Assembly (NCBI GenBank): GCA_030378105.1
Contig: JAUCGL010000001.1
Coordinates: 1-64,000 of the forward strand
Direction: 5' to 3'
DNA length: 64,000 nucleotides
Source of the DNA: Candidatus Halobeggiatoa sp. HSG11
GTDB lineage: Bacteria; Pseudomonadota; Gammaproteobacteria; Beggiatoales; Beggiatoaceae
In this document: piece after piece, positions 14,263-52,927 of the stretch
Layout: the number at the start of each line of letters is the position of its first letter
Position numbering within the stretch: position 1 is the stretch's first letter
The notes under the pieces: generated by a model
What the model was told of the DNA's origin: nothing
Database searches by the model: none
What the model saw: the letters and a program-made list of their open reading frames with translations, nothing else
Translations under genes and position numbers: made by a program

Positions 14263-15252
14263 TTACCAAGAAAAACCTTGAGCTTTACCACCACCTAAAA
14301 TTTCTAATAAAGATGGTAAATTTAGTTTACCTCCTTTACTAAATATGCTGTTGTTTGTGTCGTGAACAGTTCTGTGAGTATTATAGCAATGTGGCCATGG
14401 TTTACTCCACACCCATATCCAATCACACCTTCCAATAGTAACTGCTCTTGTTGTACAATTATGAGCTTTATTACCGTTACCAGTAACTAAGATTCCCCTA
14501 GATTTAGAATTAGTAGAAGTTTCAATGCTTAATTCACCACCATTACCAGCTATAGCACTACCACTGTTTGCTTGTGCATAACCACCATTACCAGTTAGCA
14601 TAAAACTGTTGTTTTCCAAATTGTTAGCAATAATTTTAATAAAACCACCGTTACCCGCAATTTGTTCTCCTAAACCACAAGTTGCTAATGGACATAAACC
14701 ATTAGCCCATACTGGATCATTACCACCATCACCAGTTTTAACTATAGCTTCATAAAATTCCGTAGTTTCACTGATAAATTTATTTGCAATTATAGTTATA
14801 TTAGCTCCATTACCAGCAGGTTTAGCACAATCACCATGTACACCATTTTTACTAATAATACGATATTTATTGTAGACATAATTTGCCTTAATAGTTATAT
14901 CATTGGTATTATAATCAACATTATCTTGGCTAGTTATAATTCCCTCATTACAAATATTGCCATTGCCTAAATCAATATTTTGAACAATAATTGTATGGCC
15001 ATGAAGAATTTTAACATTATCATTAGTTTGTACAGTTTTTAACTCAGAACTCGGATTGTTTACATCTTGCCAAATAGCGCCATCCCAATTTCCACTACTT
15101 GTTGATATTAAAGTTGGATTCTGACAATAAGCATCCATATTATCATCAGCATTTCCAACAATTGGAATAGTACTTAATAATATTAGAATTACTAAACCTG
15201 TAAATAAACATTCGTCAAAATAATGTGAATAAAATGTATAACTTTTTAACAT
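14263..15252 (-). CDS. Exported G8-like/beta-helix protein, short paralogue of the 1600-residue protein
   Basis: The 329-residue protein has a signal sequence (FTGLVILILLSTIPIVGNA, after ~16 polar residues) and then follows residues about 170-400 of the giant protein: SGNWDGAIWQDVNNP, GNGNICNEGIITSQDN, NDITIKANYVYNK, and Gly-rich ETTEFYEAIVKTGDGGNDP and AIAGNGGELSIE segments that match its FVNETTDSSNEALILTGNGG and AVAGEGGYIVVS. It stops after a Gly/Leu-rich tail with none of the TSP3, DUF11 or vWA parts, so it is either a truncated duplicate or a stand-alone module. A good AAGGATAT ribosome site precedes the ATG. Confidence 0.75.
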   Translation of the reverse strand: MLKSYTFYSHYFDECLFTGLVILILLSTIPIVGNADDNMDAYCQNPTLISTSSGNWDGAIWQDVNNPSSELKTVQTNDNVKILHGHTIIVQNIDLGNGNICNEGIITSQDNVDYNTNDITIKANYVYNKYRIISKNGVHGDCAKPAGNGANITIIANKFISETTEFYEAIVKTGDGGNDPVWANGLCPLATCGLGEQIAGNGGFIKIIANNLENNSFMLTGNGGYAQANSGSAIAGNGGELSIETSTNSKSRGILVTGNGNKAHNCTTRAVTIGRCDWIWVWSKPWPHCYNTHRTVHDTNNSIFSKGGKLNLPSLLEILGGGKAQGFSW

Positions 15253-15848: not shown

Positions 15849-15867
15849 TGTAACATATTGGGTTATA
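15849..15867. promoter_or_regulatory. TGTAAC-N7-GTTAYA palindrome, site 1
   Basis: TGTAACATATTGGGTTATA. Extra half-sites GTTACA occur at 15832-15837 and 15874-15879, so this gap holds a cluster. The same palindrome occurs at 33104 and 36375. Confidence 0.5.
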
Positions 15868-15994
15868 TTTAATGTTACATGCCTTGTATATTGAGTAAAT
15901 ACGGGGATTTAGGAATAATTTGAAGTGAGGAAAATTTATGACTATCCAGAAAAAATTCCAACTTAAACTTTATCTGAATATGGGTGAATACTGA

Positions 15995-18064: not shown

Positions 18065-18069
18065 AAGAA

Positions 18070-24123: not shown

Positions 24124-24147
24124 TGGTCTTCTCTTTTTAATAATCAT

Positions 24148-28624: not shown

Positions 28625-31600
28625 CTAATTTTCATGATTGTCCAACAATTTATTGAGAATATAATCCGGAAATTTATCAAGAACGTCAATAATTGATTCA
28701 TCAGAACTTGATTCAAGCAAGTCAGTTAAGATGCCAGTGAACATATCTCCAGCTTCATCGCTTAATATGTAACGAAGTGTTTCAGTAGGAACTTCTATTC
28801 CAACATACCATTTTTTTGAAGATTTATAACGATAAGTTAAATCAGATTTGGTTGCTTTAACATGTGTTTCTACTGTATTTTCAATTTGCGGAAATTCTTG
28901 TCTAAATTTATCCTGAAAGTCCTGTGGAAATTCCTCCAAAATATCTTCTATTAGTCGTTCTGGATAGTTAGAAGCTATTGGTTCTTGTAACTCTCCAGCA
29001 AAAAAGTCTTGGATAATATCACCGGGTAAACCATTTACATATTCACGAATAAATTTATTTTGCAATCTGATAAGATTTCTGATTATATAATCTCTGGGAA
29101 ATTTGCTAATTCGATCATATTGTAAATCATCAATAAATTCACCAACATGTTCACTAACATAGTCTCTTGGTAAATATTTTAGCAATTTAGAAGGTAATCT
29201 TTCCAAAGTAAAACAAATGTTACCAATGGCAAATCTATCATCAGATGGTTTTTTGCCTGTTTTGTTATTGTAATACTCTAATTTTACTTTGGTTATTCCA
29301 GAACTAGTAATTTCAAATGGATACTTGCCAATTTGACCGAGTTCATCTTTGCAAGCTTCACCAGTGCCAGAAAAGTTGCTATTTGTGTAACTTAAAGTAT
29401 CTTTTATTACTAATTTTTCTTGGTCATTATATCCTACTAATGATATAGAATGTTGAGAAGCGTTATTGGGATTATAATCACCAAAATCGAAAGTTTGCAA
29501 TGAGAAGTTCTTAAACGTTAAACCTGAGCTAAGTAAAAAAGTGTAATCATGATAACGGTTTTTATCTCCAATACCCCTGCCAATACAACCGTTAGCCTTA
29601 CTTTTACTTAGATCATAAACTGCTGGACTTTTACCTTCAACAATTACTTTAGAACTACCAGAAGTCATCAAACTTAATCCCGGATAAAGAACATCAAAGC
29701 CTTCAACTGAATCATTAACTTCAAATTGTTCTAAGGATAAACAAATTTGTTCATCCACCGGTAATTCAATAGCTTTTTCTACCATTTCACCTAACGGACA
29801 TTCTTCAGCAATTACACCAATTCCTTCTACATCTCTATATTCTCCAGTTGGAATTCGTATAGAATTTTCTACCTGACATTGTTCAATATTAAAGACTTGT
29901 AATAATTCACCTTTATGAGTTCCTAGTAACAATAAATTTTCTGTCAAGGCTTCCAATGCTTCTGTTTCTTTGGGTAAATTTTCACATTGAGTTTCTAATT
30001 CATTGGTAGCTACTTGGTATTTTAATAATTTGGTATTTTCTGCACCATAAAGTAATACGTTTCCAGTTTTAGCTAGAGCTAAATCCTCTATTTTCTTATC
30101 AGATGGTAACATTAAAGCTGCTTTACCTGTTTTGGTATCAATATGAATTAGCCCATCACCTTTAGCCCAGCCCCATAAATTTCCATCAGCGGCAAAAGTT
30201 AAGCTATCGACCTCATCAAAACCAGTTGAGCCAACTGGAATTAAAGCACCATTATTAGTACTCATCACATAGAGCTGTCCCGGCAATTTGCCAGCACCAA
30301 CATCATCACCTGATGATACGTAAACCAGCTTACTTGTTGGGTCAACTGCGAGTCCTTCAATATCATAACCTCTGTATAATGGTCCTAATGGGCTAGAGAT
30401 AAAATTTTCTAATCGACTATCAACGTTAAAGACAAGAAATATACTATTGTTCAAGTTTTTATCATTAATTGCATAGAATCGGCATGAAGCTGGAATTGCA
30501 ATATCAGGAGATGGGCCATTCCAAGCAGTATTATTGGATTCATTGCATTCACGAACTTGTTGGTCAGCATCAACGAAAGCATAAACAGTTGTCCATTCAT
30601 CCAATTCGCCAATATTTTCCAGTGTTATATCTTGATAAGCACCACCTTCAATTGAGCCAATGACGACATTGCCTAATAGTCTTTCAGCTTTGTCTGGACT
30701 ACTAGCATAAAAGCGCACTTTGATATTTTCGGGGGAACTAACAAGACCTCCGTTACCAATTCGTACTGTTAAGGAGTTATCAATGATTTGCAGTTTGGAT
30801 GCGGTTAAATCGGCAACAGCAGTTGGTGGTATGCCTTTTTCTGAATTAAGGGTGTTGAGGCGGTAGGTATTGTGCAATAGCCAACTTGGTGCTTCAACTC
30901 TTGGTACTGTACCGTCATCATTGATGTTGGTTATATGATAGTTGTACTGATTCCATATCTTACGAGTATTAACCCAACTATTATTTTTGTCTTGATAAAC
31001 TTTGATTCCATTATCGCCACCAATAATAATATCAGCTTGGTTATCATTATCTACATCAGCAATAACTGGATATTCATAAGAAGTTTTACTCCTATTAGGA
31101 ATTTCAAACAAAACTTGACCATCTCTACCACGATAAATACGCAAGTATTGTTCGTCTGCATAAACAACTTCCGCCTGTCCATCACCTTCAAAATCAAATA
31201 CAGAAGAACCAGTTACATGTGAACTACTATCTTGGTTAGGAACTGCCCATAATATATTACCTTTAGCATCAAATACTACATATCTATATTTACCAGCGAC
31301 ACCAATTTCTGGTATACCATTACCATTCATATCAGCAATGGTTGGTGCACCACCTTTTCCACCATATGGAATAGAAATTGGCCCCCAAATAAAATTGCCA
31401 TTATAGTCTAATAAGGATACTTTTCCATGAGAAACAATTACAATTTCTGGATAGTCGTCATCATTAAAATTACCAACTCCAGTAAAACCATCACCAGCAG
31501 TATTATTTTGCCAAAGTTTTTGTCCTGTGTTTGAATAGGCAGATGCACCAGCAATGATTTCTTGTTTTCCATCACGATTAACGTCTATTACAACAGAAAA

Positions 31601-33019
31601 AGAACCTTGTGAATTATTACCTGTAAAACCATTTCCTTGCCAACGTAATGAACCATCTGCATTAAGAACAGTATTACCACTCACAATTTCTGGATTACCA
31701 TCACCATCTAAATCCGCAATTGATACACCACCATTATCAGTGTATGTATTCACACTGCTTTGCCACTTAAATTCACCTGTATGTTCTAAAGCTATTAAAC
31801 GATTTCCATATGGTGCAATAATTTCAACAAAACCATCATTATCAATATCAGCAACAGCAAGATTAGCATATTTATTTGTACTATAATTTGCAATCCATAT
31901 ATTATGTCCATCTTTGCCATTAACTGCCCGTATTTTGCCAGATTCATTGTAGATAATACTTGGTATATCAAACTGATTAATTTTGCCATCGTTATTAGTA
32001 TCTTCAAGATTAGCAACTACTGGAGTCATTAATACACGACCACTCTTTTTTTCCCACTTCAACTCAGGTTCAAAAGTTACCTCTTCAGAAGCAATCTCAC
32101 ACATATTAGCCGTAGATAATATATTGTTATCCTCATCAGCTTCCGTTATATATTGCTCACTATCCACCTTAGCAAAAATAGGACTGTCCAAAAATTCCAA
32201 AGTACCACTGATAGGAATTTCTTGAGCAAGCGAATCTGCAACTCCAAGTTTATTATCAATATTAGCATCAAATTGACCATTTTGATTACTATCCTCAAAT
32301 ACCGTTATTTGGCTTGATTCTGCTGGAATACCAAGATTTTCCACCATCACATCCACAATGCCACTAACTTGTAAAGTCTGTGTATCAGTAAATATGTTTT
32401 GGATAGATAGATATGGGATAGTTAGATCAGGTTCAGTAAGAACTTCACGCTGAATTTCGTATGGGAAAACACGGACGTTGTCAATTGCTGGATATATATC
32501 GCCTCCAGTAAAAGTTAATTTAGTTTTTTCACGATTTGCAGTAAAAGTAAAAGATTTTTCAGTCCAACCCATTTGAGCAGTGTTATGCCCAGCAACATCA
32601 AAATAGAAATCCTGTGAATAAGAACCAACCGAAACGGTTAAAGATGGAATTCTATTACCGGATGGATACCCAGCTAAATCAAACAATACTTTATATTCAA
32701 TCCCGATTTCGGTTGAAAATGATTGGCTAATAGCACCTTCACGACCACCGCCCGGAACTTCCACACTTCGTTGTCCATCTGATGCTTGCCAAAAACTACC
32801 AATATAGTCAACATTACCTTTAGTAATTCTCCAACTAGTAATATCTTTACTATCATCATACAGTCTAATATGGCCATCAATATTAATTCCTTCCTCAAAA
32901 CTACCATTTTTAATCAAATTAATCTCATCAGCAATAGCCGGAAATGTAATACCGAACATAACAAGTATTACCATCCAATATCGCCATTGTTGACTTATTC
33001 CCACCAATAATGCATTCAT
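28625..33019 (-). CDS. Giant exported protein: DUF642-like, CARDB, FG-GAP propeller, shared C-terminal module
   Basis: The 1464-residue protein has a signal peptide ending ITFPAIADE, a DUF642/carbohydrate-binding-like domain (about 33-190; LIKNGSFEEG, TFTGGDIYPAIDNVRVF), a CARDB-like domain (200-310; VDVMVENLGIPAESS), FG-GAP/VCBS repeats forming an integrin-like propeller (330-690; VADIDNDGFVEIIAP, IADLDGDGNPEIVSG), a second CARDB (760-840), and from about 850 the ~610-residue module shared with the downstream gene (FYAINDKNLNNS, STGFDEVDSL, LLLLGTHKGELLQVFNIE, AGDMFTGILT). It is probably a surface glycan-binding or matrix protein. An AGAGGATAT ribosome site precedes the ATG, and a TGTAAC-N7-GTTACA palindrome lies 85 bp upstream. 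Confidence 0.85.
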   Translation of the reverse strand: MNALLVGISQQWRYWMVILVMFGITFPAIADEINLIKNGSFEEGINIDGHIRLYDDSKDITSWRITKGNVDYIGSFWQASDGQRSVEVPGGGREGAISQSFSTEIGIEYKVLFDLAGYPSGNRIPSLTVSVGSYSQDFYFDVAGHNTAQMGWTEKSFTFTANREKTKLTFTGGDIYPAIDNVRVFPYEIQREVLTEPDLTIPYLSIQNIFTDTQTLQVSGIVDVMVENLGIPAESSQITVFEDSNQNGQFDANIDNKLGVADSLAQEIPISGTLEFLDSPIFAKVDSEQYITEADEDNNILSTANMCEIASEEVTFEPELKWEKKSGRVLMTPVVANLEDTNNDGKINQFDIPSIIYNESGKIRAVNGKDGHNIWIANYSTNKYANLAVADIDNDGFVEIIAPYGNRLIALEHTGEFKWQSSVNTYTDNGGVSIADLDGDGNPEIVSGNTVLNADGSLRWQGNGFTGNNSQGSFSVVIDVNRDGKQEIIAGASAYSNTGQKLWQNNTAGDGFTGVGNFNDDDYPEIVIVSHGKVSLLDYNGNFIWGPISIPYGGKGGAPTIADMNGNGIPEIGVAGKYRYVVFDAKGNILWAVPNQDSSSHVTGSSVFDFEGDGQAEVVYADEQYLRIYRGRDGQVLFEIPNRSKTSYEYPVIADVDNDNQADIIIGGDNGIKVYQDKNNSWVNTRKIWNQYNYHITNINDDGTVPRVEAPSWLLHNTYRLNTLNSEKGIPPTAVADLTASKLQIIDNSLTVRIGNGGLVSSPENIKVRFYASSPDKAERLLGNVVIGSIEGGAYQDITLENIGELDEWTTVYAFVDADQQVRECNESNNTAWNGPSPDIAIPASCRFYAINDKNLNNSIFLVFNVDSRLENFISSPLGPLYRGYDIEGLAVDPTSKLVYVSSGDDVGAGKLPGQLYVMSTNNGALIPVGSTGFDEVDSLTFAADGNLWGWAKGDGLIHIDTKTGKAALMLPSDKKIEDLALAKTGNVLLYGAENTKLLKYQVATNELETQCENLPKETEALEALTENLLLLGTHKGELLQVFNIEQCQVENSIRIPTGEYRDVEGIGVIAEECPLGEMVEKAIELPVDEQICLSLEQFEVNDSVEGFDVLYPGLSLMTSGSSKVIVEGKSPAVYDLSKSKANGCIGRGIGDKNRYHDYTFLLSSGLTFKNFSLQTFDFGDYNPNNASQHSISLVGYNDQEKLVIKDTLSYTNSNFSGTGEACKDELGQIGKYPFEITSSGITKVKLEYYNNKTGKKPSDDRFAIGNICFTLERLPSKLLKYLPRDYVSEHVGEFIDDLQYDRISKFPRDYIIRNLIRLQNKFIREYVNGLPGDIIQDFFAGELQEPIASNYPERLIEDILEEFPQDFQDKFRQEFPQIENTVETHVKATKSDLTYRYKSSKKWYVGIEVPTETLRYILSDEAGDMFTGILTDLLESSSDESIIDVLDKFPDYILNKLLDNHEN

Positions 33020-33103
33020 GTGTATATCCTCTTGTATAAAAGATTAACAAAGTTATAACATTTCACGATAAAAATTATAAGCAATCATACTATTCTCAAT
33101 TAA

Positions 33104-33138: not shown

Positions 33139-35472
33139 TCACATCCAATTTCCAACCAATACCAATGGAGCCCAATAATTAGGATGGGAATAATTTTCTT
33201 GTTTAAGAAGTTTAATTTGAGATTGTTGTAATGCCTTAGCAATACTTGAATGTTGTTTTAATTGATTATAAAATTCATCCATTAGTATAGGAGTAGTATC
33301 ATCATCAGCATCCCATAAATTAGCCAAAGCAGATTTCACCCCAGTTTTCACTGCAATTCCAGCTAAACCTAAAGCGGCTCTATTACTTCCCACAGCTGTT
33401 TGACAAGCACTTAACGTTAGCAATTCTACAGATACTTTTGGAACATTAAATTTTATTAATTCTTCTAGTCGATCTATTGTTATTTTATTATCATAAGTAA
33501 TAAAAAAATTTTCACGAGGGTCTTCATTAAATTGGCCATGTGAAGCAACATGCACGATACTATAAATATTTTTCTTAATTTCAGCTTCAAACTGTACTCG
33601 TCTAAATTCACTATTAAACAATATTTTGGATTTAGGATCAGGATAATATTCTTTTTCAATTTCATCTATTTCTGATTTTGCCTGAGGCAAAGGTTCTAAT
33701 CCTTGCACACCATCAGAAATCCCACTAAGAAGAACTTGTAATTTGATATCAATCGGTTCTGGATTAGTTAAAGCTAAACCCTGTGTAACTGCTATAGCAT
33801 AATTCTCAATTAAAAATTGTTTACCATCATGAAAAGCAGCAAATGGTACAGTACGTAAAATTTCATCAGGTACTATAACCAAAGTATCAATCTGTTTTAA
33901 TTTCTCTTCAATTGGTCTAATTAACCAATCGTAAAGAGGTTCGGCATATTCAAGATAATCATCTGATGTTCCGAATTCTAATGTACCAAGAAAAATATGA
34001 GTAATATTTTCAATTTCTTGACGAGATGCTTCAAGAGGAACTAGAAATAAATTATTTGATAAAATAACCAATAATTGAGCTTGCTCTTGAGGTTGAGATA
34101 ATAAAATTGGATAAAGAATAGCAGTTTTTGAATATGTTTGGTTAGTAAATTCAGCGATTTTTTCAGTAAATTTACCTGTTTGTAACATTTCTAAACAACT
34201 ACTTTCATCATAATCTTGAAACTCAGCAATTTTAAACCGTTCAAGTGTAAACAATAATTTTTTTAAATACTTTTGTGAATTATTTGGTTGTGGTAATTTA
34301 TTATGTTGCTGAATTAACAAATTCATTAGTTCATAATAAAGTGGAGCCAGTGAATTATGAAAATTGCCAATAAGTTGCTGTCGATTGCTACAATAACCAG
34401 TATTAGCTAAAGATTGTCGAATAGGTTGCAAGGTTTCAATAGCTAACCGATACATTTCAATCGCTTCTTCCGGTTGCTTCATTTCCTTAAATAAACGCCC
34501 TGATTGCCAATACCAACGATAAACAAGTTCTGGTAAAATCATTTTATCTGGAAGAAAATCAGCTTGTTGGGCTAAAAATAATGCCTTACGAGTTAAAGAT
34601 AAAGCTTCAGAATAACGTTTGGCATCGTAATATAATTCGCCTAAATAACCATAAGCATAAGATAATGCAATATTATCCTTAGTTTCTTCAGCAGTTTTCT
34701 GAGCTGCTTGCAAAGCTGAAACAGCAATATTTTGGAGTTCAACCTGTTGTTTAAAAGCCTTTTTCTGTTTGAGTATTTGAATTGCCTGAGTTGCCAATTT
34801 ACCTATTGCTAATAATCCAAATGATTTATCATGGGAAGCTGGTAATTTGCTAATTATTGATAAAGATTTTTTTAAATCTTCAAATATTACAATATTTTCA
34901 ATATCCTGTAAAAGATAAACTTTAATAATATTAATTTTTGCTTTAGCTATTAAATATTGAGCATTAGCTTGTTTAGCAAGTTTTATACTATCCTCATATT
35001 TTTGTAGTGCATCTTCATATAAATCTGGTATAGATTCAAATATTTTAGGTTTGAAATCAATACCTGTTGATATTGTTAACATGTTGCCTTGCCTTATGAA
35101 AACTTGGGCAAGAAGTAATGGGTCATCAAGTTCATTAGCAATAGTTTCTGCTTTTTGTAATAGTTGTTCAACTATTAGTTTATTGTCACTATATAGTTGG
35201 CAAATACAGGGAGTTGATTCAACGCATGAAATAGTTTGAGGTGGAATTATCAAAGATAAATCAGCTTTTTCATTTAAATGGCGGATTTGATAAGCCTTAT
35301 TATTTTTAATAAATGATTTAGCCTGTTGTAAATTTTGACAAGCTTTCTCATAAAAACCATAATTGCGGTTGGTTGCACCCGATTTAAGCAACTTATCAAA
35401 GTTATTTGTAGTTTCAATCTGTGCATAAGCTAGATTGCTATAAATAATAATATAATAGAAAAATAATCGCAT
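33139..35472 (-). CDS. TPR-CHAT caspase-like protease
   Basis: The 777-residue protein has a probable signal peptide (MRLFFYYIIIYSNLAYAQ), TPR-type helical repeats (about 25-400; ALSYAYGYLGELYYDAKRYSEAL, EAIEMYRLAIETLQ) and a C-terminal CHAT domain (about 500-777) with the catalytic His in VHVASHGQF (~643) and Cys in LSACQTAVG (~687), plus the ALANLWDADDDTTPILM signature. CHAT proteases are caspase-clan enzymes; the TPR-CHAT (Craspase/Csx29) member cuts a specific protein on activation. In Beggiatoa and cyanobacteria exported TPR-CHAT proteins commonly accompany TPS haemagglutinins such as the one at 16-18 kb. It is transcribed just before the 1464-residue gene. Confidence 0.92.
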   Translation of the reverse strand: MRLFFYYIIIYSNLAYAQIETTNNFDKLLKSGATNRNYGFYEKACQNLQQAKSFIKNNKAYQIRHLNEKADLSLIIPPQTISCVESTPCICQLYSDNKLIVEQLLQKAETIANELDDPLLLAQVFIRQGNMLTISTGIDFKPKIFESIPDLYEDALQKYEDSIKLAKQANAQYLIAKAKINIIKVYLLQDIENIVIFEDLKKSLSIISKLPASHDKSFGLLAIGKLATQAIQILKQKKAFKQQVELQNIAVSALQAAQKTAEETKDNIALSYAYGYLGELYYDAKRYSEALSLTRKALFLAQQADFLPDKMILPELVYRWYWQSGRLFKEMKQPEEAIEMYRLAIETLQPIRQSLANTGYCSNRQQLIGNFHNSLAPLYYELMNLLIQQHNKLPQPNNSQKYLKKLLFTLERFKIAEFQDYDESSCLEMLQTGKFTEKIAEFTNQTYSKTAILYPILLSQPQEQAQLLVILSNNLFLVPLEASRQEIENITHIFLGTLEFGTSDDYLEYAEPLYDWLIRPIEEKLKQIDTLVIVPDEILRTVPFAAFHDGKQFLIENYAIAVTQGLALTNPEPIDIKLQVLLSGISDGVQGLEPLPQAKSEIDEIEKEYYPDPKSKILFNSEFRRVQFEAEIKKNIYSIVHVASHGQFNEDPRENFFITYDNKITIDRLEELIKFNVPKVSVELLTLSACQTAVGSNRAALGLAGIAVKTGVKSALANLWDADDDTTPILMDEFYNQLKQHSSIAKALQQSQIKLLKQENYSHPNYWAPLVLVGNWM

Positions 35473-35549: not shown

Positions 35550-36242
35550 TTATTTGGGCTGTTCCATCTGAAAAATTATTTTAGCTTGACGTACACAGTT
35601 TTTACCTAACATCCATTTACCTTTAGATGTATTAGATATTAATTTAGTTGGCATTTTATGCAATTTAATAAAAAGAGGACTCTTTTTAGTAGAGGAACTT
35701 TTTATGATCTTAGCCAAATGAATATTACCTGTTGTTGGTAACTTATCAACTGAAATTTCTAACATGTCTTGTTTAGCATCCCATTTTAACGTGGTTTCGT
35801 TTATACTAACTTCAATTTTAGTTTTGGCATCAGGTCGCCAAAGTTTAAGAGGAGCATCAGAAGCATAACAAAAATTACTATCTTCAGAAACAACAAGTAA
35901 CTCTGAATTTTTTAACTGTTCATACTTAGCAATTATTGGTCGTTTATTACCAAATATTTCTCTGATAGTTTTAATAAGACCATCACTTTTTTTATCAGTT
36001 TTTTTATCAGCATCATAAGGTCCATCAAAAGTGTAAATGACCTTTTTATTGCCTTTCGTTATTTCCACCTGAATTTTATCTCCGAGTTTGAGATTAATTT
36101 CGGTTTTCTCGGTTAACATTTTACCAATAGGGTATTCTTCTGGTAAATTGCTTGATACCACCTTGAATGTTACATCTCCCATAACCATTTGAGAACTTAT
36201 CCAAATAGATAAGATTAAGAACAGTTTTAATGAGTTAAACAT
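35550..36242 (-). CDS. Exported hypothetical protein (230 aa)
   Basis: It has a signal peptide (SLKLFLILSIWISSQMVMGD), then a beta-rich protein of ~210 residues with two Cys (in NFCYASDAPLKLW and GKNCVRQAKI) that could pair. No family is recognised with confidence. Short exported proteins of this kind often precede TPR-CHAT genes, and this one is transcribed immediately upstream of the CHAT gene in the same direction. An AAGGAGAT ribosome site precedes the ATG. It shares a ~190-bp divergent promoter region with the HTH-ATPase gene, in which the TGTAAC-N7-GTTATA palindrome lies. Confidence 0.75.
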   Translation of the reverse strand: MFNSLKLFLILSIWISSQMVMGDVTFKVVSSNLPEEYPIGKMLTEKTEINLKLGDKIQVEITKGNKKVIYTFDGPYDADKKTDKKSDGLIKTIREIFGNKRPIIAKYEQLKNSELLVVSEDSNFCYASDAPLKLWRPDAKTKIEVSINETTLKWDAKQDMLEISVDKLPTTGNIHLAKIIKSSSTKKSPLFIKLHKMPTKLISNTSKGKWMLGKNCVRQAKIIFQMEQPK

Positions 36243-36374: not shown

Positions 36375-36393
36375 TGTAACATGAAATGTTATA
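36375..36393. promoter_or_regulatory. TGTAAC-N7-GTTATA palindrome, site 3
   Basis: TGTAACATGAAATGTTATA has long arms (TAACAT-GAA-ATGTTA) and sits 47-65 bp upstream of the HTH-ATPase start in the divergent promoter region. Position and symmetry suggest an operator, possibly for the HTH protein itself. Confidence 0.6.
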
Positions 36394-36439
36394 TTAAAAT
36401 CGCTATAATAATTCTATTAATACAAATTGAGATTTGATA

Positions 36440-37951
36440 ATGAATGTTTTACAAGAACGACCTAGTTTCGGAGAATTGTTGTTTCATTATAATCGCCATA
36501 GAAAATACTCTGATGATGAGTTAGCCGATAAAATTAGTGTATCCGTCAGAGATATTATAATTCCAAAAAATAAAAAATGTCCAAATGTTATTAATGACGA
36601 AATTACTGTTCTTGAAGATAAAAACAATACAATCATTGAAATAAAAAGCGGAAACACTGTTATTAAAGAACCAAGCGATATAATAGATTTATGGTTCAAT
36701 AATGAACTCTACACTCTAAGAGGTAAATATGTATCCAGACTTATTAGACTGTTTAAATTAACAGATGAGCAAAGTACCGAATTTTTATTCGCATCTGGTT
36801 GTCAGCAGAGTTTTGGAAAATTGTTAGAATTTTATATGTGGGAGAAAAAATTTAATAATACTAAACTAGCAAAAAAAGTTGGAGTCGCAGTTAAGACAGT
36901 TGGATGTTGGATAAAAGATGGGATAATGCCACGTCCTGAATCTGTCAGAGAAATTGCCAAGGTTTTAGATATTTTAAAATTACCTGATAGACAAATTATA
37001 GAATTTTATTTATTAGCTGGTGTTGCACCTCCCTCCGGTATTGGCGGTGAAATAATAGGTATTGATGATAAGGTAAAAGATACTAGTGTAATTGATGAAG
37101 CTTCCCATGAACTCGCATATCCAACTTTGGGAATTCCTATATCTCATCCTAATCAATTTTTCGGCCGATTAGATATACTTAGACGCTTTAAGAGAGCATG
37201 GCAAAATCCAAATGCACTACAACATATTGCAATAATTGGCAAAAGACGTAGTGGTAAAACTTCTTTGTTAAAGTACTTACAATATATTGCTCAAACTCCA
37301 ACAACAGAATTGCGTTCAGAACAACATCAAATATGGAATGGCTGGTTACCAAAAGATTTTCAGTTTGTTTTGATTGACTTTCAATATGCAGCTATGAGTC
37401 AACCAGAAAGTTTATTAACCCATATTTTGAACAAACTTAACTTACCAGTACCAAATCCATGTAATTTGATAGAATTTACTCAAGTGCTTGATGAACAATT
37501 GACTAGACCAACAATTATGTTATTTGATGAAATAGGTGCTGGACTACAATCTCCTGATTTAGATCAAACATTCTGGTCGAATATGCGTGCTTTGGGTAAT
37601 CATTGTGCAGATGGCAAACTTGGTTTTGTGGTGACAGCCCATGAACAAATTCATATTTTAACTAAAGATAATTCTAAAGAATCGCCGTTTTTTAATATTT
37701 TTGGCCACAATGTACATCTTAAACCTTTAACTACAACTGAGGCTACTGATTTAATTAATAGTTTTTTTAAATCATTACCAACAATAGATATAGATTGGTT
37801 GTTGCGAAACAGTGGTGGTTGGCCAGCATTGTTGCAACTTTTATGTGATAGTCGCTTACATGCTTTGGATACAAATGATGATAGTGATACTTGGAAAACT
37901 GAAGGTAAAGAACGGATTAAACCATTCTTAATTGATTTACCTACAGGATAA
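36440..37951 (+). CDS. HTH (duplicated XRE-like) STAND-type ATPase
   Basis: The 503-residue protein (ATG at 36440; a TTG two codons earlier is possible) has two N-terminal XRE-like units. Residues about 10-130 start FGELLFHYNRHRKYSDDELADKI, and 130-190 repeat the pattern FGKLLEFYMWEKKFNNTKLAKKVGVAVKTVGCWIKDG. A P-loop ATPase follows with FFGR entry, Walker A IIGKRRSGKTSLL (~266) and Walker B IMLFDEIGAGL (~361), then a wHTH-like end. STAND ATPases act as ligand-triggered switches; with HTH units this one is probably a DNA-binding sensor-regulator. Six bases separate it from the membrane ATPase gene, so the two are expected to work together. Confidence 0.88.
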   Translation: MNVLQERPSFGELLFHYNRHRKYSDDELADKISVSVRDIIIPKNKKCPNVINDEITVLEDKNNTIIEIKSGNTVIKEPSDIIDLWFNNELYTLRGKYVSRLIRLFKLTDEQSTEFLFASGCQQSFGKLLEFYMWEKKFNNTKLAKKVGVAVKTVGCWIKDGIMPRPESVREIAKVLDILKLPDRQIIEFYLLAGVAPPSGIGGEIIGIDDKVKDTSVIDEASHELAYPTLGIPISHPNQFFGRLDILRRFKRAWQNPNALQHIAIIGKRRSGKTSLLKYLQYIAQTPTTELRSEQHQIWNGWLPKDFQFVLIDFQYAAMSQPESLLTHILNKLNLPVPNPCNLIEFTQVLDEQLTRPTIMLFDEIGAGLQSPDLDQTFWSNMRALGNHCADGKLGFVVTAHEQIHILTKDNSKESPFFNIFGHNVHLKPLTTTEATDLINSFFKSLPTIDIDWLLRNSGGWPALLQLLCDSRLHALDTNDDSDTWKTEGKERIKPFLIDLPTG

Positions 37952-37957
37952 TTAGCA

Positions 37958-40762
37958 ATGTTCATAACAACACACCTACATAACAACTTATTCATAGCGA
38001 GTTTTCAACTATTAGGTTGGTTATTATTTCATCCAACTGCTTGGCAACATTTTGTTAATCAAATTGATACAAGTCTATCACCGGATTTTACCTTAAGCAA
38101 TATCTCACTTAATTGCTACCAACATCCAAATTTACGCAGGTTGCGATTGATTGCTTTTGTCATGTTACCAATTTTGGTAGGTTTATTGATTGGAATTTTA
38201 TTGACGATTATTCCTTTTATATCTTGGTTTTTCAACCAAATACCAACACAAAATTCTGTTTACACTTTACCTGAACATTTTGGGGTGAATTTAATTATCG
38301 GAATAAGTTATGGAATCTTAATTTGTCTTGTTGGTAGTATATTAAGTAGTCTAACAATTTCTATACCTTTTGCTATAGTTGCTAGTGTTTTATCTGGTAT
38401 TTTAGTTGGTTTTTGTATGGCAATGAAGTTGTATGGTTGGACTATCATTTCAGCTATTTTTGCAACAAGTGTTGCTGGTAGTATAACGACTCATTGGTAC
38501 TGTAAAGATAATAAATATGCTGTTATTGGTAATTTGGTCATTGGTACTATTTTCGGAGCTGTTAGTAGCGTGGTTGTTGGTATTATTTTGTTAGGAATTG
38601 TGTTATTTGTTGGAGCAGGGGTTGGATATATATTTACACAACTATGGCCTAATATCAATAATTTACAGGAATATGCAAAAATTATTGGTATGGCAGTAGC
38701 GTGTGGATTGTTTTTAGGTGGTTACTTAAAGAAAAATTGGCGTGATTCTCTTAAATGGGGATTATTATTTGGTTGTTTAATGACTTTATTAATTGCTCTG
38801 ACTTTTAATATAATGGAAATTCCCAAAGATACTTGGTCCAAACACCTATTTAACAGTATAAGAAGAGGAACTATCAATGCTATGGCCTTTTCAGTTCTAT
38901 TTGCAGTACCATATTTATTAGCTAGACATTTTGCCAATGTTTGGGCTGGAGTTATTGCTGGAGTTTTAAGCAGTGGCGGAATATATTTGGGGATAATATT
39001 AACTGGTGAATATTCCAAATTTTTAATAGTTTGGGGATTGGTATTTTTTGGGCTTGGATTGAGTCAAAAATATTGGTTATCAATAATATCTTATCCATTT
39101 GAATTGGCATGGAATTTATTGGTTTATCAAGCTCAAAAACGTAACCCCAAACGTACCATTAATTTATTGTCTTGGCATTCCGCATTCTGGAATGAACAAC
39201 AACATTTACCACTTTTTGGTTTGGAAACCTTATTGGTTAAAGTGTATGAATATGATGCAAATTTAGGTCAACAAGCTATCCTACATTTAAGTAATACTCC
39301 ACAAAACTGGGCAGTTCAAGCCACTCAAATTGAAACCAACATTCAAACTTTAGAAAAATGCCATACTATTCAAGATATTGCCCAAGTTCATAAAATTCTA
39401 GTGGTAAATGATGATTTGGATGGCGTTTCCGGTAATTGGTTGCGTAATTTTAATAAGAATAGTCAAGATATTAGCACTGTTCTTAAGCAAAATAATTACC
39501 AACAAATAATAATATTAGATAATAATATCAATGCTATCGAAGGTATATTAACTCTTGCTGGCGGTAAACAGTCCAAAGAAGTGCAACGTTTCCGAACGAT
39601 AGCTAAAAAATGGTTGCATCTATTGCATGATCGTGCCAATAAACTTAAAGGAATGCAAGAGATTTATAATCCTTATATTGTTGGAATACCATTACAAAAT
39701 GGCCAAGATGTTTTTATACCACGTCCTGATATTAATGCACGAATAAAACGCTTATTAGACAACCGTTCTGCTCCACCTTTATTACTTTATGGACAACGAC
39801 GTACAGGTAAAACTTCTTTATTGCAAAATTTATATACTCAATTACCAGATAATTTCATTATGCTTTTTATAGATTGTCAAGGTACATTAAATGCGGCTCA
39901 AAATAACTTAAGTTTCTTTTATAATTTAGCTCGATTAATTATTAATTCTGCTAAGAAAAATTATCCGAATTTACCATTTCCACCTTTACCTGAAGATGTG
40001 GTACGTTCTGATCCAGTTACTCGATTTGATGAATGGTTAGATGCTGTTGAAATAGCAATAGGAGATAAAACTTTATTATTTGTTTTAGATGAATTTATCA
40101 CTCTTGATAATGCTTTCAATGATGGACGTTTAGAAATAACGACTATTTTAGGTATGTTGCGTAATATGATTCAGCATCGTTTAAAATTTCGCTTTTTGTT
40201 ATCTGGTGGCCATGCTTTACAAGAATTACAACATTGGGCTAGTTATTTGATTAATGCACAAACTGTACATATGAATTATTTAACAGAAGATGAAGCTAAA
40301 TGTTTAATTGAACATCCAATAGAAAATTTTCCATTAAATTATACTGATGAAGCCACCAAAAGAGTTATAGATTTAACTAATAATTTGCCGGTTCTTATTC
40401 AAGCATTGTGTGGCGAACTAATAAGTATAAAAGATAAGCAAACAGTTGATAAGCGGCTTTTTGTTCAAATATTTGATGTTGAAATGGCTATACCATCAGC
40501 TTTGGAACATAGCAGAATTTTTTTTGATGATATTGAAAAAAATCAAGTAGATAAAGATGGTCGTATTGTGCTTAAATTTATGGCCTCTCAAGGTGAAGGA
40601 GCTATCGTTAGTCGAGAGAAATTAGCAACACTTAATATCACTGATCAAGAAAAAACTATAGAATTGCTGCTTTTGCGAGAGATAATTGAAGTAGTGGGTG
40701 ATGATGGCTATTGCTTTCAAATAGAATTAGTACGGCGTTGGTTTTTATCGGAAAAATTGTAG
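37958..40762 (+). CDS. Polytopic membrane protein with C-terminal STAND ATPase
   Basis: The 934-residue protein has ~10 transmembrane helices between about residues 65 and 370 (LPILVGLLIGILLTIIPFI, LVIGTIFGAVSSVVVGIILL, VWAGVIAGVLSSGGIYLGII), a cytosolic linker (370-580), and an AAA/STAND ATPase with FIPRPDINARIKRLL, Walker A YGQRRTGKTSLL (~611) and Walker B LLFVLDEFITLD (~705), ending in a winged-helix-like part. It starts 6 bp after the HTH-ATPase gene with AGGA in the preceding stop region. The likely role is a membrane-signal receptor coupled to the HTH-ATPase. The stop codon TAG coincides with the first bases of a segment duplicated from 7474, so the natural C-terminus may have been replaced. 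Confidence 0.85.
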   Translation: MFITTHLHNNLFIASFQLLGWLLFHPTAWQHFVNQIDTSLSPDFTLSNISLNCYQHPNLRRLRLIAFVMLPILVGLLIGILLTIIPFISWFFNQIPTQNSVYTLPEHFGVNLIIGISYGILICLVGSILSSLTISIPFAIVASVLSGILVGFCMAMKLYGWTIISAIFATSVAGSITTHWYCKDNKYAVIGNLVIGTIFGAVSSVVVGIILLGIVLFVGAGVGYIFTQLWPNINNLQEYAKIIGMAVACGLFLGGYLKKNWRDSLKWGLLFGCLMTLLIALTFNIMEIPKDTWSKHLFNSIRRGTINAMAFSVLFAVPYLLARHFANVWAGVIAGVLSSGGIYLGIILTGEYSKFLIVWGLVFFGLGLSQKYWLSIISYPFELAWNLLVYQAQKRNPKRTINLLSWHSAFWNEQQHLPLFGLETLLVKVYEYDANLGQQAILHLSNTPQNWAVQATQIETNIQTLEKCHTIQDIAQVHKILVVNDDLDGVSGNWLRNFNKNSQDISTVLKQNNYQQIIILDNNINAIEGILTLAGGKQSKEVQRFRTIAKKWLHLLHDRANKLKGMQEIYNPYIVGIPLQNGQDVFIPRPDINARIKRLLDNRSAPPLLLYGQRRTGKTSLLQNLYTQLPDNFIMLFIDCQGTLNAAQNNLSFFYNLARLIINSAKKNYPNLPFPPLPEDVVRSDPVTRFDEWLDAVEIAIGDKTLLFVLDEFITLDNAFNDGRLEITTILGMLRNMIQHRLKFRFLLSGGHALQELQHWASYLINAQTVHMNYLTEDEAKCLIEHPIENFPLNYTDEATKRVIDLTNNLPVLIQALCGELISIKDKQTVDKRLFVQIFDVEMAIPSALEHSRIFFDDIEKNQVDKDGRIVLKFMASQGEGAIVSREKLATLNITDQEKTIELLLLREIIEVVGDDGYCFQIELVRRWFLSEKL

Positions 40763-42486: not shown

Positions 42487-42685
42487 GCTTATACCATTTT
42501 TGCGAGATGCTTACAACCTAGTCGCACAGGTTCATAATAAAGTACCTACCGAAACATTAGAAAAAGCAATGGATGCAATAAAAATAGCTATAAATGAACA
42601 GCAAAAAATTGATCAAGAAATGATGAATAGTGATTCTATAAAGAAAGATATAGAAAAAATGAAAAAAGTTTTTAAATCAATATGA
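42479..42685 (+). CDS. Small helical protein (68 aa)
   Basis: A 68-residue, almost entirely helical protein rich in K, E, M and I (ETLEKAMDAIKIAINEQQKI) that could form a coiled coil; no signal peptide. It overlaps the secreted-peptide ORF by 8 bp with GAGA as a possible ribosome site, so it belongs to the same unit. The end overlaps the convergent caspase gene by 9 bp. No family is recognised. Confidence 0.6.
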   Translation: MNELIPFLRDAYNLVAQVHNKVPTETLEKAMDAIKIAINEQQKIDQEMMNSDSIKKDIEKMKKVFKSI

Positions 42686-44839
42686 AGTCTTGATAAATAA
42701 TCTTTTTATTTCATAAATTAATTTTTCAAGGTATTTACTTATAACTTCTTTTGAAGCCTCATTTGGTAAAGATAAGTTGTCTAATTTTTTTTCTCTAATA
42801 AAATTAAATGCACTTATATAAAGTTCAGGGTATAATACCAATTCTGAATCAAATTGTGTATCAAACATATTTAAAGGTAGGTATTCGCTACTTCTAAGAC
42901 TCCTAATAAGCCAAACAGTAAGAAAAATAAATAAATCTTGACAAAATGTATTTTTACTAGGAATTGTATGACTATTTAAAACAAAATTATATGTTTCTAT
43001 AGTTATTTTTTTTAAACAAGTAGGTTCATTTTCCTTTAACCAAGATATTTGTTTAATAGCATCTTGACGAGCTTTTAGATTTTCTAATAATAATTTTTCT
43101 TTGTTTTTTGATTCATTAGGATAAAACTTTTCTTTTACTTTTATAACTTTTTCAATTGCATCATTTGTTATATTATCAGATTTATAAGCCCGATTTTTAC
43201 ATATTATTAGCTTGTCAGAAAGACCATAAGAAGATATCTTAGGTAAAGGTAAATTTTTACTTGCCAATCGTTCATTCAAACCACTAAAAATATCATGAAG
43301 TGTTAATGTTTTTCCAGCATTATCAATACCATGTTCTAAAATAGTTAATAATTGACTAGTAAAAGCTGTAAAATTTTTATTTTCTGGAGATTCAGCTTTG
43401 GCAGTTTCATTACCAGTAGTTGCTGTAATCAAAAACACTTTTTTTTCTTTATCATCAATATATTTTGTTGCAAGACCACTGAAACAACAATCTAAAATGA
43501 AAATAATATTTTTTGCTTTACTCTTATCTATAATAGTTTGTAATAATTCTCCAGATAAAATTGCACCAGTATTTTTAGGATCGCTAGAGTGAGTTTCTGT
43601 TGTTGTAAAATAAAGCTCTTTATAATGACGAATACAATGACCCACATAATAAAAGATTACTGTATCAGTAGCTTTTGGTATAACTTTTATTATTTTTTTA
43701 GTTATTTTGCTATAACTACTCTTGTCAATTAGCATAAGAGTATTTTTTTTGTCAATATCAACAATTGTAGATAGTAGTTTTCTTAGCTTAGTAAGATTAT
43801 CTATAGCATTAGGAATAGGGAAAAAATTTTCATCTTTAATTTCACTTGTTCCAATTAAAATAGCCCGAGTATTTTTTGGATCAATTTTTACTAAATCTTG
43901 TTTTTTAGCATTACAGATATTTAAGTTATTATACTTTGTTATTAAGTTTTTATCTGTTGTTTTTTTATTATCTATTTGTTGCTCTAAAGGTAATTTTTTT
44001 GGCAATACAGATATATTACTATCATTTTGAATAGACAAAGGATTACTCTTCAATAAATTAATAACAAAAGCCGCTGCAACATCAGCCGCATACTCTTGCC
44101 ATTCATCATTTTTACTAGAATCAGCCCAATCACAAATACCTTTAACCATAAGAAATTCTGGGCGTGATTCAGCCATATATGCTGCTAAGGCTGTACCATA
44201 TCCCTCCATTTCTATACCAACTAATTTTGACCAATGATCTTGTATTTTAGAAGCTGAATTATTATCAGCAAGAATTTTTTCACCTGAAGCAATAACACCC
44301 CAATGAATATTTGGATTGACTCGTCCAGTTGTACCATCTGGTCGTTCAAGAATTGGTTTTAAAATCCATTGTTTATAAGAAAATTTTTTAGCGGCTTGAA
44401 TGATCTTATGTGTAGGACGTAGAACATCATCACGTGATTCAGTAGTCTCATCTTTTATTTTCTGCTGTTCATATCCAACAATTTGTTCTGCTGCAATTAA
44501 ATCTCCCAATAAACGTTTATCCTTGGTTATATTTATTAAATCAGTTTGTTCATTATCATCTTGCATACCGCCAGCAATACCAGCCAAAACAATTAAATTT
44601 GGATTCAAGTCATTAATTACTTGTGTTGTTGTAATACCAACTGCAACATTGCCCATTTTATTTTGACAAAGTAGAACAACTTGACAGAAATTTTCCTTAT
44701 TATCATTAGATAAATTAAATTTATCTGCGGTATAACTTCCTACTTGAATTTTTTCACATTTATTATTATCTAAATGACGTAAAACGGCATTTTTTTCTTT
44801 CTCAAGTGCCGTTATAATAACCACATCTGCTTTTTTCAT
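42677..44839 (-). CDS. Nucleoside phosphorylase-caspase (C14) fusion protein
   Basis: The ~720-residue protein (ATG at 44839; a TTG five codons upstream is possible) has an N-terminal phosphorylase/nucleosidase fold (5-275: VVIITALEKEKNAVL, VVLAGIAGG-type glycine turn, GIEMEGYGTALAAY, KGICDWAD), then a caspase-like C14 domain (about 320-570) with ARAILIGTS-type start, His in FYYVGHC (~397) and Cys in FILDCCFSG (~448), then a ~150-residue helical tail. PNP_UDP domains are found as sensor or effector modules fused to caspases in bacterial conflict systems. It is 27 bp downstream of a four-TM protein gene, an arrangement suggesting effector plus membrane partner. Confidence 0.87.
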   Translation of the reverse strand: MKKADVVIITALEKEKNAVLRHLDNNKCEKIQVGSYTADKFNLSNDNKENFCQVVLLCQNKMGNVAVGITTTQVINDLNPNLIVLAGIAGGMQDDNEQTDLINITKDKRLLGDLIAAEQIVGYEQQKIKDETTESRDDVLRPTHKIIQAAKKFSYKQWILKPILERPDGTTGRVNPNIHWGVIASGEKILADNNSASKIQDHWSKLVGIEMEGYGTALAAYMAESRPEFLMVKGICDWADSSKNDEWQEYAADVAAAFVINLLKSNPLSIQNDSNISVLPKKLPLEQQIDNKKTTDKNLITKYNNLNICNAKKQDLVKIDPKNTRAILIGTSEIKDENFFPIPNAIDNLTKLRKLLSTIVDIDKKNTLMLIDKSSYSKITKKIIKVIPKATDTVIFYYVGHCIRHYKELYFTTTETHSSDPKNTGAILSGELLQTIIDKSKAKNIIFILDCCFSGLATKYIDDKEKKVFLITATTGNETAKAESPENKNFTAFTSQLLTILEHGIDNAGKTLTLHDIFSGLNERLASKNLPLPKISSYGLSDKLIICKNRAYKSDNITNDAIEKVIKVKEKFYPNESKNKEKLLLENLKARQDAIKQISWLKENEPTCLKKITIETYNFVLNSHTIPSKNTFCQDLFIFLTVWLIRSLRSSEYLPLNMFDTQFDSELVLYPELYISAFNFIREKKLDNLSLPNEASKEVISKYLEKLIYEIKRLFIKTSY

Positions 44840-44866
44840 TATATTTTTACTCAAATAATTTACACA

Positions 44867-45478
44867 TTAACGACCTTTTTTTAAATCAGCATACTTAAAA
44901 ATAAATATCCCTAAACCACAAAGTAATATTATTTCAATAATAAAAACAAAAATCAAGAGATAATCCCAAGATTTAGACCATAAATCCCAAAATAATAAAA
45001 GAGAAAATAATCCTGATAAACAAAATGTTACTTCATCAATAAATAACTGAGTTTTCTTGCGTATTTTTCTCCAATTATCACTTCTATGCCCAGTTTCCCA
45101 GCCAAATAATGGCTCTGATATCTCATCAATTAAATTTTCATTAACCAATTTTTCCAGCTTATCCGTCATATCATACCGAATATATCTACCAATAGCAGAA
45201 ATTTTTTCATCATTAACCAAATATGTCCAGCCCAAGATTAAACAAACCCAAGGTAATACTAAAAATACATGGTAATGTGATGGACTAGTGATAGAATAAG
45301 ACAAAATACCACCAAAAGCAGCTAAAGTAACATATAACAAATTATCTCTAAAACGCATCCGCATAACTTGTTCATCTTTTAACTTCACATATTCATTAAG
45401 ATGTATCCATAACAACCATTCTTTAGGTTCATCTATTTTTCTTGGTATAGAAGGATTAACAGCATCATTTGGTAACAT
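44867..45478 (-). CDS. Four-TM membrane protein partnered with the caspase fusion
   Basis: About 203 residues from the ATG at 45478, which has GGAG six bases upstream (a TTG four codons earlier is less likely). A soluble N-terminus (1-45) is followed by two helices (LLYVTLAAFGGILSYSI, VFLVLPWVCLILGWTYLV), a ~65-residue charged loop containing LFGWETGHRSDNW, then two more helices (FCLSGLFSLLLFWDLW, LLIFVFIIEIILLCGLGIFIF). No enzyme motif is seen. It is transcribed directly before the caspase gene and probably encodes its membrane partner, anchor or pore. The ~350-base stretch down to 45828 is AT-rich with no gene recognised. Confidence 0.8.
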   Translation of the reverse strand: MLPNDAVNPSIPRKIDEPKEWLLWIHLNEYVKLKDEQVMRMRFRDNLLYVTLAAFGGILSYSITSPSHYHVFLVLPWVCLILGWTYLVNDEKISAIGRYIRYDMTDKLEKLVNENLIDEISEPLFGWETGHRSDNWRKIRKKTQLFIDEVTFCLSGLFSLLLFWDLWSKSWDYLLIFVFIIEIILLCGLGIFIFKYADLKKGR

Positions 45479-45827
45479 ATTTTTCTCCAATCAGATAAGA
45501 ACTATTGTTATACATTTCAGTTAAAAATAAATTATATTAGCTTCACGTTTAATTCATATTGGATTAAATCTGGCATAAGACCTCCAAATAATAAATATTT
45601 AATTTACCTTAAAAAATTCTGCATAAACCAGTACAAAATTATACACTTATATATTATACACATATAACTAGTTTATGTGGCAAATTATACCAAAAATTAC
45701 AGATAGTTTGCAACATTTTTTCCCCTATTCCCAGCAACTTATTAAGAATACAATCAAGACGCACCAGTATCATATTCAAACCAAGCAGATTTAATTTCGG
45801 ATTTTATTGAATCCACAGTCCTTTAAA

Positions 45828-51754: not shown

Positions 51755-52927
51755 TTAATTAGAATAAGAGTTAACTACTTGTTTGCCAACCTCTCTTATT
51801 ATTTCACATCGCCAACCTAACATTCCTTCCTCAATTTTAAAAACATTATTCCAATACAACCTGCATAGTAAAGTATTATTGTAGAGTATTCCAGTAGACA
51901 TCTTATGTTTTTGGTTGTGCTTTAACCATTTAGATAATTTATCTCGATCACCACTACTTTTAATAACTGAACTAAATAATTGCCATAAATTACTGGTATC
52001 CAAAAGTATCTTTGAATGTTCTTCCCAAGATAAATTAGGGTTGTTTTTTTTAAGTTTTATCGATTCTAATAATAATTCTGGATGTCCACCACATATTCTT
52101 AATATTTCATTTGCATCTTCTGTTTCTAAATCTAAATTTTTTTGAAAATAACTAATAGCTTCGACATCTTCAATACCAAGCTCAGGCTTTGACTCAAAAT
52201 CTTCACACATACTTAGCAGTGAATGTTCATCTAATGGTTCTGATTTAAGTTGAGCTAATTTTTTACTTCCCCATAAAATCAAATGTAGTTTAGATGAACC
52301 AATTTCATCCATAGTACTACGTATTATTTTTCCTAATGCAGATTCTAAATTTGGTGAACATCGCTCAAGTCGACTGATTAATAAAAATAATGGAGTACTT
52401 TCTTGTACTTTTTCTTTTAATTTGATTTCAAATTGATGAGAATTTTGTATATTGTTCCATCCAAATTGTTTACCTAACTCTGGAAAATATTCATTAATAT
52501 CTTCAGAAAAACCTGCTGGTGGTTGTAAATGCACGGTATTTCCAAGTGGGTATCTTTTTCTAGCTTGATTATATAAAGCATTAGCAAAAGGTAGAGATTT
52601 CCAATTTATTGGAGTAAGCCAAATTTTATATGGTGGATTAGAATTTGATAATTCATCTAATCCTGCCTGAAAATCTTTACTTAATAAAACATCTTCTAAA
52701 TCCTTTTTTTTGTATTTTTCATCAGGAAATGCTGCTGTAATGAACTCTTCAGATTCTTGTTTATTTAGTTTAAAAAAATTAGCAAGAAGTTCTATTGTTT
52801 TAATATCTTGAGGTAACTTACCATTCACCCAATGCCAAATAGTCTCGCGTCTCACACCTATTTCATCAGCAATAGCTTTTACCCTAAAAGGACGTTTATA
52901 TTTGGTCAATAACTTTGCGAAAGACAT
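51755..52927 (-). CDS. HTH protein with degenerate ATPase domain
   Basis: The 390-residue protein has an XRE-like HTH at 14-55 (VKAIADEIGVRRETIWHWVNGKLPQDIKTIELLANFF), a linker (60-95) and an ATPase-like region (about 95-320). Where Walker A is expected after KIWLTP the sequence is INWKSLPFANALYNQ, without GxxxxGK[ST]; a Walker-B-like TPLFLLISRLERC has no acidic pair. The rest is shaped like STAND/AAA_35 proteins (CGGHPELLLESI). It is probably a nucleotide-binding-dead regulator. It is transcribed just before the NHL-ATPase gene, so the pair may be a receptor-regulator unit. Confidence 0.75.
   Translation of the reverse strand: MSFAKLLTKYKRPFRVKAIADEIGVRRETIWHWVNGKLPQDIKTIELLANFFKLNKQESEEFITAAFPDEKYKKKDLEDVLLSKDFQAGLDELSNSNPPYKIWLTPINWKSLPFANALYNQARKRYPLGNTVHLQPPAGFSEDINEYFPELGKQFGWNNIQNSHQFEIKLKEKVQESTPLFLLISRLERCSPNLESALGKIIRSTMDEIGSSKLHLILWGSKKLAQLKSEPLDEHSLLSMCEDFESKPELGIEDVEAISYFQKNLDLETEDANEILRICGGHPELLLESIKLKKNNPNLSWEEHSKILLDTSNLWQLFSSVIKSSGDRDKLSKWLKHNQKHKMSTGILYNNTLLCRLYWNNVFKIEEGMLGWRCEIIREVGKQVVNSYSN

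Follow-up and report, generated by a model that had tools for sequence, protein, structure and literature searches.

The window analysed here, 64,000 nucleotides at the start of a contig of Candidatus Halobeggiatoa sp. HSG11 (JAUCGL010000001.1), contains two adjacent genes that encode a helix-turn-helix (HTH) protein with an ATPase and a membrane protein with an ATPase of its own. Both ATPases resemble those of the STAND class, which act as signal switches.

36440 to 37951, plus strand: HTH-ATPase, 503 amino acids, with XRE-like units at residues ~10-118 (with a beta insertion) and 124-193 and a STAND/ATPase_2-type ATPase at ~231-500
37958 to 40762, plus strand: membrane STAND ATPase, 934 amino acids, with ~10 transmembrane (TM) helices in residues 1-400, a helical arm at 400-565 and a P-loop ATPase at ~570-830

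The first gene runs from the ATG at 36440 (an alternative TTG lies at 36434) to the stop at 37951, and the second follows after 6 bases. An earlier note, made from the sequence alone, had described a 503-residue protein with two XRE-like units and a P-loop ATPase, followed after 6 bp by a ~10-TM P-loop partner; the coordinates, Pfam searches, structural models and conserved Walker motifs all agree with that description. In the AlphaFold model of the HTH-ATPase (pLDDT 84), two five-helix XRE-like units precede the ATPase, the first of them split by a beta insertion of low confidence. The model of the membrane protein (pLDDT 90) shows a membrane domain of ~10 long hydrophobic helices, the helical arm, the ATPase and a predicted C-terminal winged helix at ~866-931. 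In Pfam, residues 139-180 of the HTH-ATPase match HTH_3 with an E-value of 9e-5, just under the cut-off, and its first XRE-like unit has no match. The other hits, weak AAA_35/AAA_22 in the HTH-ATPase and AAA_22/ATPase_2 in the membrane protein, fall under the cut-offs as well, so the family is easy to overlook.

The Walker A and Walker B motifs are conserved in the alignments of both families (G272, K273 and D363 in the HTH-ATPase; G617, K618, D711 and E712 in the membrane ATPase). The hhGRxxE motif that precedes Walker A is found in the HTH-ATPase as the conserved residues F241-G242-R243. Its counterpart in the membrane family has an invariant F586 and an R589 conserved above 90%; G588 is conserved above 90% in the Beggiatoaceae alignment, where the window copy has P588. 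Past the ATPase core, a GxP-like motif is marked by invariant residues in both proteins (P462 and Q466; P811 and Q815). In Foldseek searches the archaeal ATPase_2 structures 2qen and 2fna ranked first and third for the HTH-ATPase model and first and second for the membrane ATPase model, with CED-4, Apaf-1, NLR resistosome structures and ORC/Cdc6 at lower ranks. Because 2qen and 2fna lead for both proteins, both can fairly be named STAND-like. C-terminal sensor repeats (TPR, WD or other) were not found, the chains ending soon past the ATPase or at the winged helix; such repeats are not known to be required in ATPase_2-type STAND ATPases.

The same genome holds ~8 paralogues of the membrane ATPase and ~7 of the HTH-ATPase, several of them as adjacent pairs. 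True paralogous copies of the pair lie on contig C293 (twice), on C4 and elsewhere. Within the family Beggiatoaceae, the membrane protein was matched in 24 of 25 genomes and its partner in 23 of 25. A scan of one genome per species yielded 171 relatives, and the best 80 of these, which were analysed further, fall in Beggiatoaceae/Thiotrichaceae, in Chloroflexi (Anaerolineae, Ardenticatenaceae, Chloroflexales) and in Cyanobacteria (Nostoc, Calothrix, Oscillatoria, Tychonema, Westiellopsis, Brasilonema and others). These lineages are known for filamentous growth; the pattern combines the best 80 hits of one scan with the known lifestyle of the named genera and is not a measured enrichment. In 53 of the 66 loci with enough upstream DNA, the same strand carries an HTH-ATPase gene no more than 5 kb upstream, and in 44 of these no more than 700 bases away. 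This arrangement is far beyond chance, and the adjacency that had been noted in a single genome is conserved across three phyla. Counted together with the family's own loci, the adjacent pairs of Beggiatoaceae, Chloroflexi and Cyanobacteria number 69, all distinct. No relative was found in viral contigs, plasmids gave partial matches only (below 40% identity), and the gammaproteobacterial sample contained no full-length relatives outside the family.

Some loci depart from the simple two-gene order. In L091 (9291-11422), L107 (8109-10310) and L111 (8696-10983), two genes of the HTH-ATPase family are followed by one membrane ATPase gene. The triples of L091 and L111 adjoin an ABC ATPase and a ~1110-residue protein with ~18 TM helices, and proteins of the same two kinds adjoin a single-partner pair in L144. 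In six cyanobacterial loci (L208, L211, L212, L215, L225 and L227), small open reading frames of 112-205 codons lie between the partner and the membrane ATPase; they may encode a detached N-terminus of the membrane protein or constitute an additional gene.

The two ATPases have evolved together. Distances in their trees correlate with r=0.925 over 67 pairs, compared with 0.25 ± 0.10 when pairs were permuted within each phylum, and none of 2000 permutations reached the observed value. Within Beggiatoaceae alone, the observed correlation was 0.92 against 0.55 ± 0.14 for permutation of paralogues within genomes, again with 0 of 2000 reaching it. One orthologous pair of this family is unlinked in several genomes, its genes being, for example, 280 kb apart in G023 and on two large contigs in G009. 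These single-copy orthologues are both present in 17 genomes, the membrane protein occurs alone in one and the partner alone in none, and seven genomes have neither (Fisher p=1.7e-5 for joint retention over the 25 genomes, uncorrected for kinship of the genomes). At least 7 of the 17 genomes with both have the genes unlinked. Independent evolution of the two ATPases, which the earlier note had named, together with a missing interface, as grounds for abandoning its proposal, is thus not what we observed. As both partners are kept together even where their genes are unlinked, we read this as functional coupling.

The ATPase of the partner is constant, and its N-terminal module differs between the phyla. 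In Beggiatoaceae the module is XRE, present as two units in the window protein, L153 and L206; in Chloroflexi it is BTAD, of the SARP type (E-value 9e-21 in L185, the only Chloroflexi partner scanned for it, the remaining partners of 478-557 residues being judged by length); in Cyanobacteria it is another small HTH. The promoter element switches together with the module, from a palindrome in the window and a close relative to 11-bp repeats in Chloroflexi. There, AfsR-like direct repeats lie in the divergent promoters: 8 of the 9 loci carry GCGTTGATCnnGCGTTGATC at a distance of 40-60 bases ahead of the SARP-ATPase gene, and the ninth has a variant. Eleven of the 12 matches to GCGTTGATCnnGCGTTGATC in 159 kb sit in the divergent promoter; shuffling predicts ~1 match in all. 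The repeat unit resembles the published AfsR box, CGTT(T/C)ATCGNN (PMC10972967). In Cyanobacteria, direct repeats with a lag of 11 stand out in the HTH-ATPase promoters (z 5.7 once similar promoters are removed), with a strong repeat in 3 of 10 of them and in 1% of other promoters from the same loci. Control promoters of Chloroflexi show lag 11 as well, which we tentatively attribute to the same divergent intergenic regions being read from the other side. The swapped modules and matching promoter elements support the predicted binding of DNA by the HTH partner.

In the window and in a close relative, the element is a palindrome, TAACRTnnnAYGTTA. The divergent promoters of the window and of Parabeggiatoa HSG14 (L149), whose partner protein is 54% identical, share it as GTAACrtgawATGTTAy. 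The best window sites, neither strand being assigned, are the following:

36376 to 36392: candidate operator within the divergent promoter, GTAACATGAAATGTTAT; Parabeggiatoa HSG14 has this palindrome in the corresponding promoter (L149, 7284-7300)
33105 to 33121: second candidate operator, 20.3 bits, in the promoter of the 28625-33019 gene
33055 to 33071: third candidate operator, 11.7 bits, in the promoter of the same gene
15850 to 15878: a pair of weaker candidates (12.4 and 11.4 bits) that overlap each other, upstream of the gene at 14263-15252

Scores come from a matrix seeded with the two divergent-promoter sites only. After the site at 36376, the next four best sites in the window (33105, 15862, 33055 and 15850) are all intergenic and within a cluster of exoprotein genes; the three intergenic regions that hold them make up ~1.65% of the window. 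Across the 5.2-Mb genome there are four sites with no or one mismatch, two of them in this region. Other near-exact palindromes lie on contig C129, by a secreted-like gene, and on C73, by an unrelated gene. On C129 (locus L282, ~3950-3976) two overlapping operator-like palindromes are found upstream of a 299-residue secreted-like protein, which is possibly a distant member of the regulon.

The cluster is divergent from the pair: a 27-kb run on the minus strand (8997-36242) of large exported-looking proteins (VWA/SdrD, TPS, Calx-beta/C13, FG-GAP, CHAT-TPR), likely one surface or exoprotein cluster. Several of its members are listed below; a VWA/SdrD protein lies on the same side.

35550 to 36242, minus strand: SP230, 230 amino acids, with a signal-like segment at the N-terminus
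33139 to 35472, minus strand: TPR-CHAT protease-like protein with a signal-like N-terminus
28625 to 33019, minus strand: 1464-residue exoprotein (DUF642, FG-GAP, CARDB), with candidate operators in its promoter
18070 to 24147, minus strand: 2025-residue exoprotein (NHL, peptidase C13-like, Calx-beta repeats), in the putative target cluster
15995 to 18073, minus strand: exoprotein with a two-partner-secretion (TPS) domain, in the putative target cluster

Genes of these kinds recur beside the pair. In many Beggiatoaceae an SP230 relative adjoins the HTH-ATPase gene or is divergent from it, CHAT-TPR genes adjoin the pair also in L149, L122, L129, L130 and L142, and TPS exoproteins recur in L122, L129 and L201; in Chloroflexi the divergent gene encodes a TadE/CARDB surface protein. 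Hydrophobic N-termini were found in the divergent neighbours of 11/17, 9/12 and 5/9 loci, compared with background frequencies of 0.30, 0.39 and 0.15, respectively. It is because the divergent neighbours look exported that we favour an envelope or exoprotein role, and the divergent cluster, which the earlier note had overlooked, is likely the target.

We therefore propose, with a probability of roughly 0.62, that the membrane STAND ATPase controls a DNA-binding STAND ATPase that regulates genes of envelope and secreted proteins. The two genes would encode a transmembrane switch built of two STAND-type ATPases. The multi-helix domain of the membrane protein would read a signal at or across the envelope, and the protein would change its state through nucleotide exchange on its cytosolic ATPase. 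It would then act on the cytosolic partner, probably by entering with it into a mixed ATPase assembly and thereby releasing or sequestering it. In turn, the partner would bind the palindromic operator in its own divergent promoter and the promoters of the exoprotein cluster (SP230, CHAT-TPR, FG-GAP, TPS), activating or repressing them, and surface and secreted proteins would be produced on demand.

Several observations weigh against this proposal. The HTH has been lost from ~10 Beggiatoaceae orthologues, which consist of the ATPase only, one with decayed HTH remnants upstream and one with a frameshift in the HTH. The ATPase pair must therefore be useful without DNA binding, and DNA binding is apparently not the sole job of the partner ATPase. 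The partner is not upstream in 13 of the 66 testable loci, nearly all of them Beggiatoaceae orthologues. A co-linear operon can yield matching trees from linkage alone, a concern addressed by the unlinked genomes alone. The palindrome in the window was derived from two related promoters, and a blind palindrome search over 18 Beggiatoaceae promoters revealed no clear shared element, a result that fits our proposal only if every paralogue has its own site. The earlier note had likewise proposed a membrane ATPase that acts on a DNA-binding partner; adjacency and co-evolution favour that idea, and the loss of the HTH counts against it. The HTH decay is visible in L134 (upstream of 5920) and L180 (upstream of 8945), where the region before the partner ATPase gene carries frameshifts and stops or is frameshifted.

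A second pair on the minus strand of the window had been taken for a recurrence of the same module.

51755 to 52927, minus strand: HTH partner of the sister pair, with an XRE unit and a STAND-like domain that has lost the P-loop and kept GGHP and a winged helix
48803 to 51730, minus strand: membrane partner of the sister pair, with an NHL propeller, TM segment and STAND ATPase

The gene order is as claimed, an HTH protein followed after 24 bases by an NHL-propeller membrane P-loop ATPase. The identity of the module did not stand: the membrane protein combines an NHL sensor with 1-2 TM helices instead of 10, and no P-loop motif was seen in the relatives of its partner, which keeps the GGHP motif and a winged-helix-like end. 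Profile comparison aligned the ATPase of the NHL protein to the first membrane family (E-value 2e-5, probability 77%) and the XRE unit of its partner to the first HTH family (E-value 5e-6, over 65 residues only). The sister partner recurs near an NHL or similar membrane ATPase in ~9 relatives. Judged by these domains, the 48.8-52.9 kb pair is a sister design and not a copy, its predicted DNA-binding partner being an inactive STAND-like protein. In L272 (2566-4323) a partner of the sister family has TIR instead of the HTH. Elsewhere in the window, a PNP-phosphorylase and caspase (C14) protein (42677-44854, minus strand) adjoins a small 2-TM protein (44867-45490, minus strand); the two genes are effector-like, of the kind seen in conflict systems (PADLOC PDC-M60C, 6e-39).

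Among the alternatives, the one that survives best, although we consider it unlikely, is a conflict or defence system of multicellular bacteria, in which the membrane STAND ATPase would be both sensor and effector, killing an infected cell or arresting it, and the HTH partner would silence the operon until infection. The matches fall in lineages known for filamentous growth. The sister family swaps HTH for TIR, an effector-like PNP-caspase gene lies nearby at 42677-44854, and CHAT is caspase-like. An enrichment of NTP-dependent conflict systems in multicellular bacteria, among them Beggiatoa, has been published (PMC7159879). Against this, PADLOC returned weak partial ATPase matches only (E-value 5e-4 or worse) and no full-length match to a system protein, and, as described above, viral contigs contained no relative and plasmids partial matches only. 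One orthologous pair is single-copy in most Beggiatoaceae genera and conserves its SP230 neighbour, unlike fast-turnover defence islands, and the putative operators point to exoprotein genes.

It is less probable still that the pair is an ATPase machine for the export or assembly of the neighbouring surface proteins, with an HTH that merely autoregulates the operon. Such a machine would suit the exported-looking divergent neighbours in Beggiatoaceae and Chloroflexi and the orthologues that lost the HTH and kept the ATPases; STAND ATPases, however, are switches and not known export motors, the exoproteins bring their own routes (signal-like N-termini, a TPS domain), and each phylum has neighbours of unrelated families. 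Very improbable is a DNA-loading pair in the manner of ORC/Cdc6, TniB or TnsC, in which the HTH-ATPase would assemble on DNA and the membrane ATPase would anchor or remodel it. In its favour, ORC/Cdc6, MuB and TnsC folds match alongside and after STAND folds, and TniB profiles match weakly; against it, STAND ATPase_2 structures match best, and genes for transposases or replication do not recur next to the pair.

Our proposal of a membrane STAND ATPase controlling a DNA-binding one may extend beyond this locus. Tentatively, and at somewhat less than even odds, the pair could represent a further basic design of transmembrane gene control, one shared by three distantly related and largely filamentous lineages and used to control surface proteins: a membrane STAND ATPase would switch a DNA-binding one through assembly of the two ATPases, and the DNA-binding modules would be interchangeable. 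Bacterial transmembrane signalling is taught as two-component, one-component, extracytoplasmic function (ECF) sigma and kinase pathways. If true, a paired-STAND relay would extend this list by a route that uses the switch ATPases also found in the receptors of innate immunity (NLRs), and its presence in Beggiatoaceae, filamentous Cyanobacteria and Chloroflexi may bear on surface control in multicellular bacteria. Concrete sites are available for testing, namely those at 36376 and 33105, the GCGTTGATC repeats of the Chloroflexi SARP-ATPase genes and the cyanobacterial 11-bp repeats, and the pair occurs in culturable hosts (Nostoc, Calothrix, Oscillatoria).

We found no description of the pair in the open-access literature; as far as those papers show it is unreported, and it belongs to the STAND regulators, a known kind. 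The archaeal ATPase_2, or MNS-type, STAND ATPases, the top fold match for both window proteins, are single soluble ATPases as solved (2qen, 2fna) and have neither a TM domain nor an XRE unit. VMAP/iSTAND ternary conflict systems (PMC7159879) occur in multicellular bacteria and include an inactive STAND partner that resembles the 51.7-52.9 kb protein, but the neighbourhoods of the pairs analysed here showed neither a MoxR nor a vWA component. Two-component systems likewise consist of co-evolving genes for a membrane sensor and a DNA-binding partner next to target genes; they differ in that neither protein of the window pair has a HisKA/HATPase kinase, phosphotransfer or receiver domain in Pfam. 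A further parallel is with the STAND transcription factors MalT, IniR and the SARP-NB-ARC proteins such as AfsR, which join a DNA-binding domain to a STAND ATPase switch and of which IniR regulates an envelope-stress operon (PMC5760070, PMC10972967, PMC6468293); the operator repeats at the Chloroflexi pairs are AfsR-like. In these regulators, however, a single protein carries C-terminal sensor repeats or a sugar-binding domain, whereas the window pair lacks sensor repeats after the ATPase and has a second STAND ATPase, bound to the membrane, encoded next to the first.

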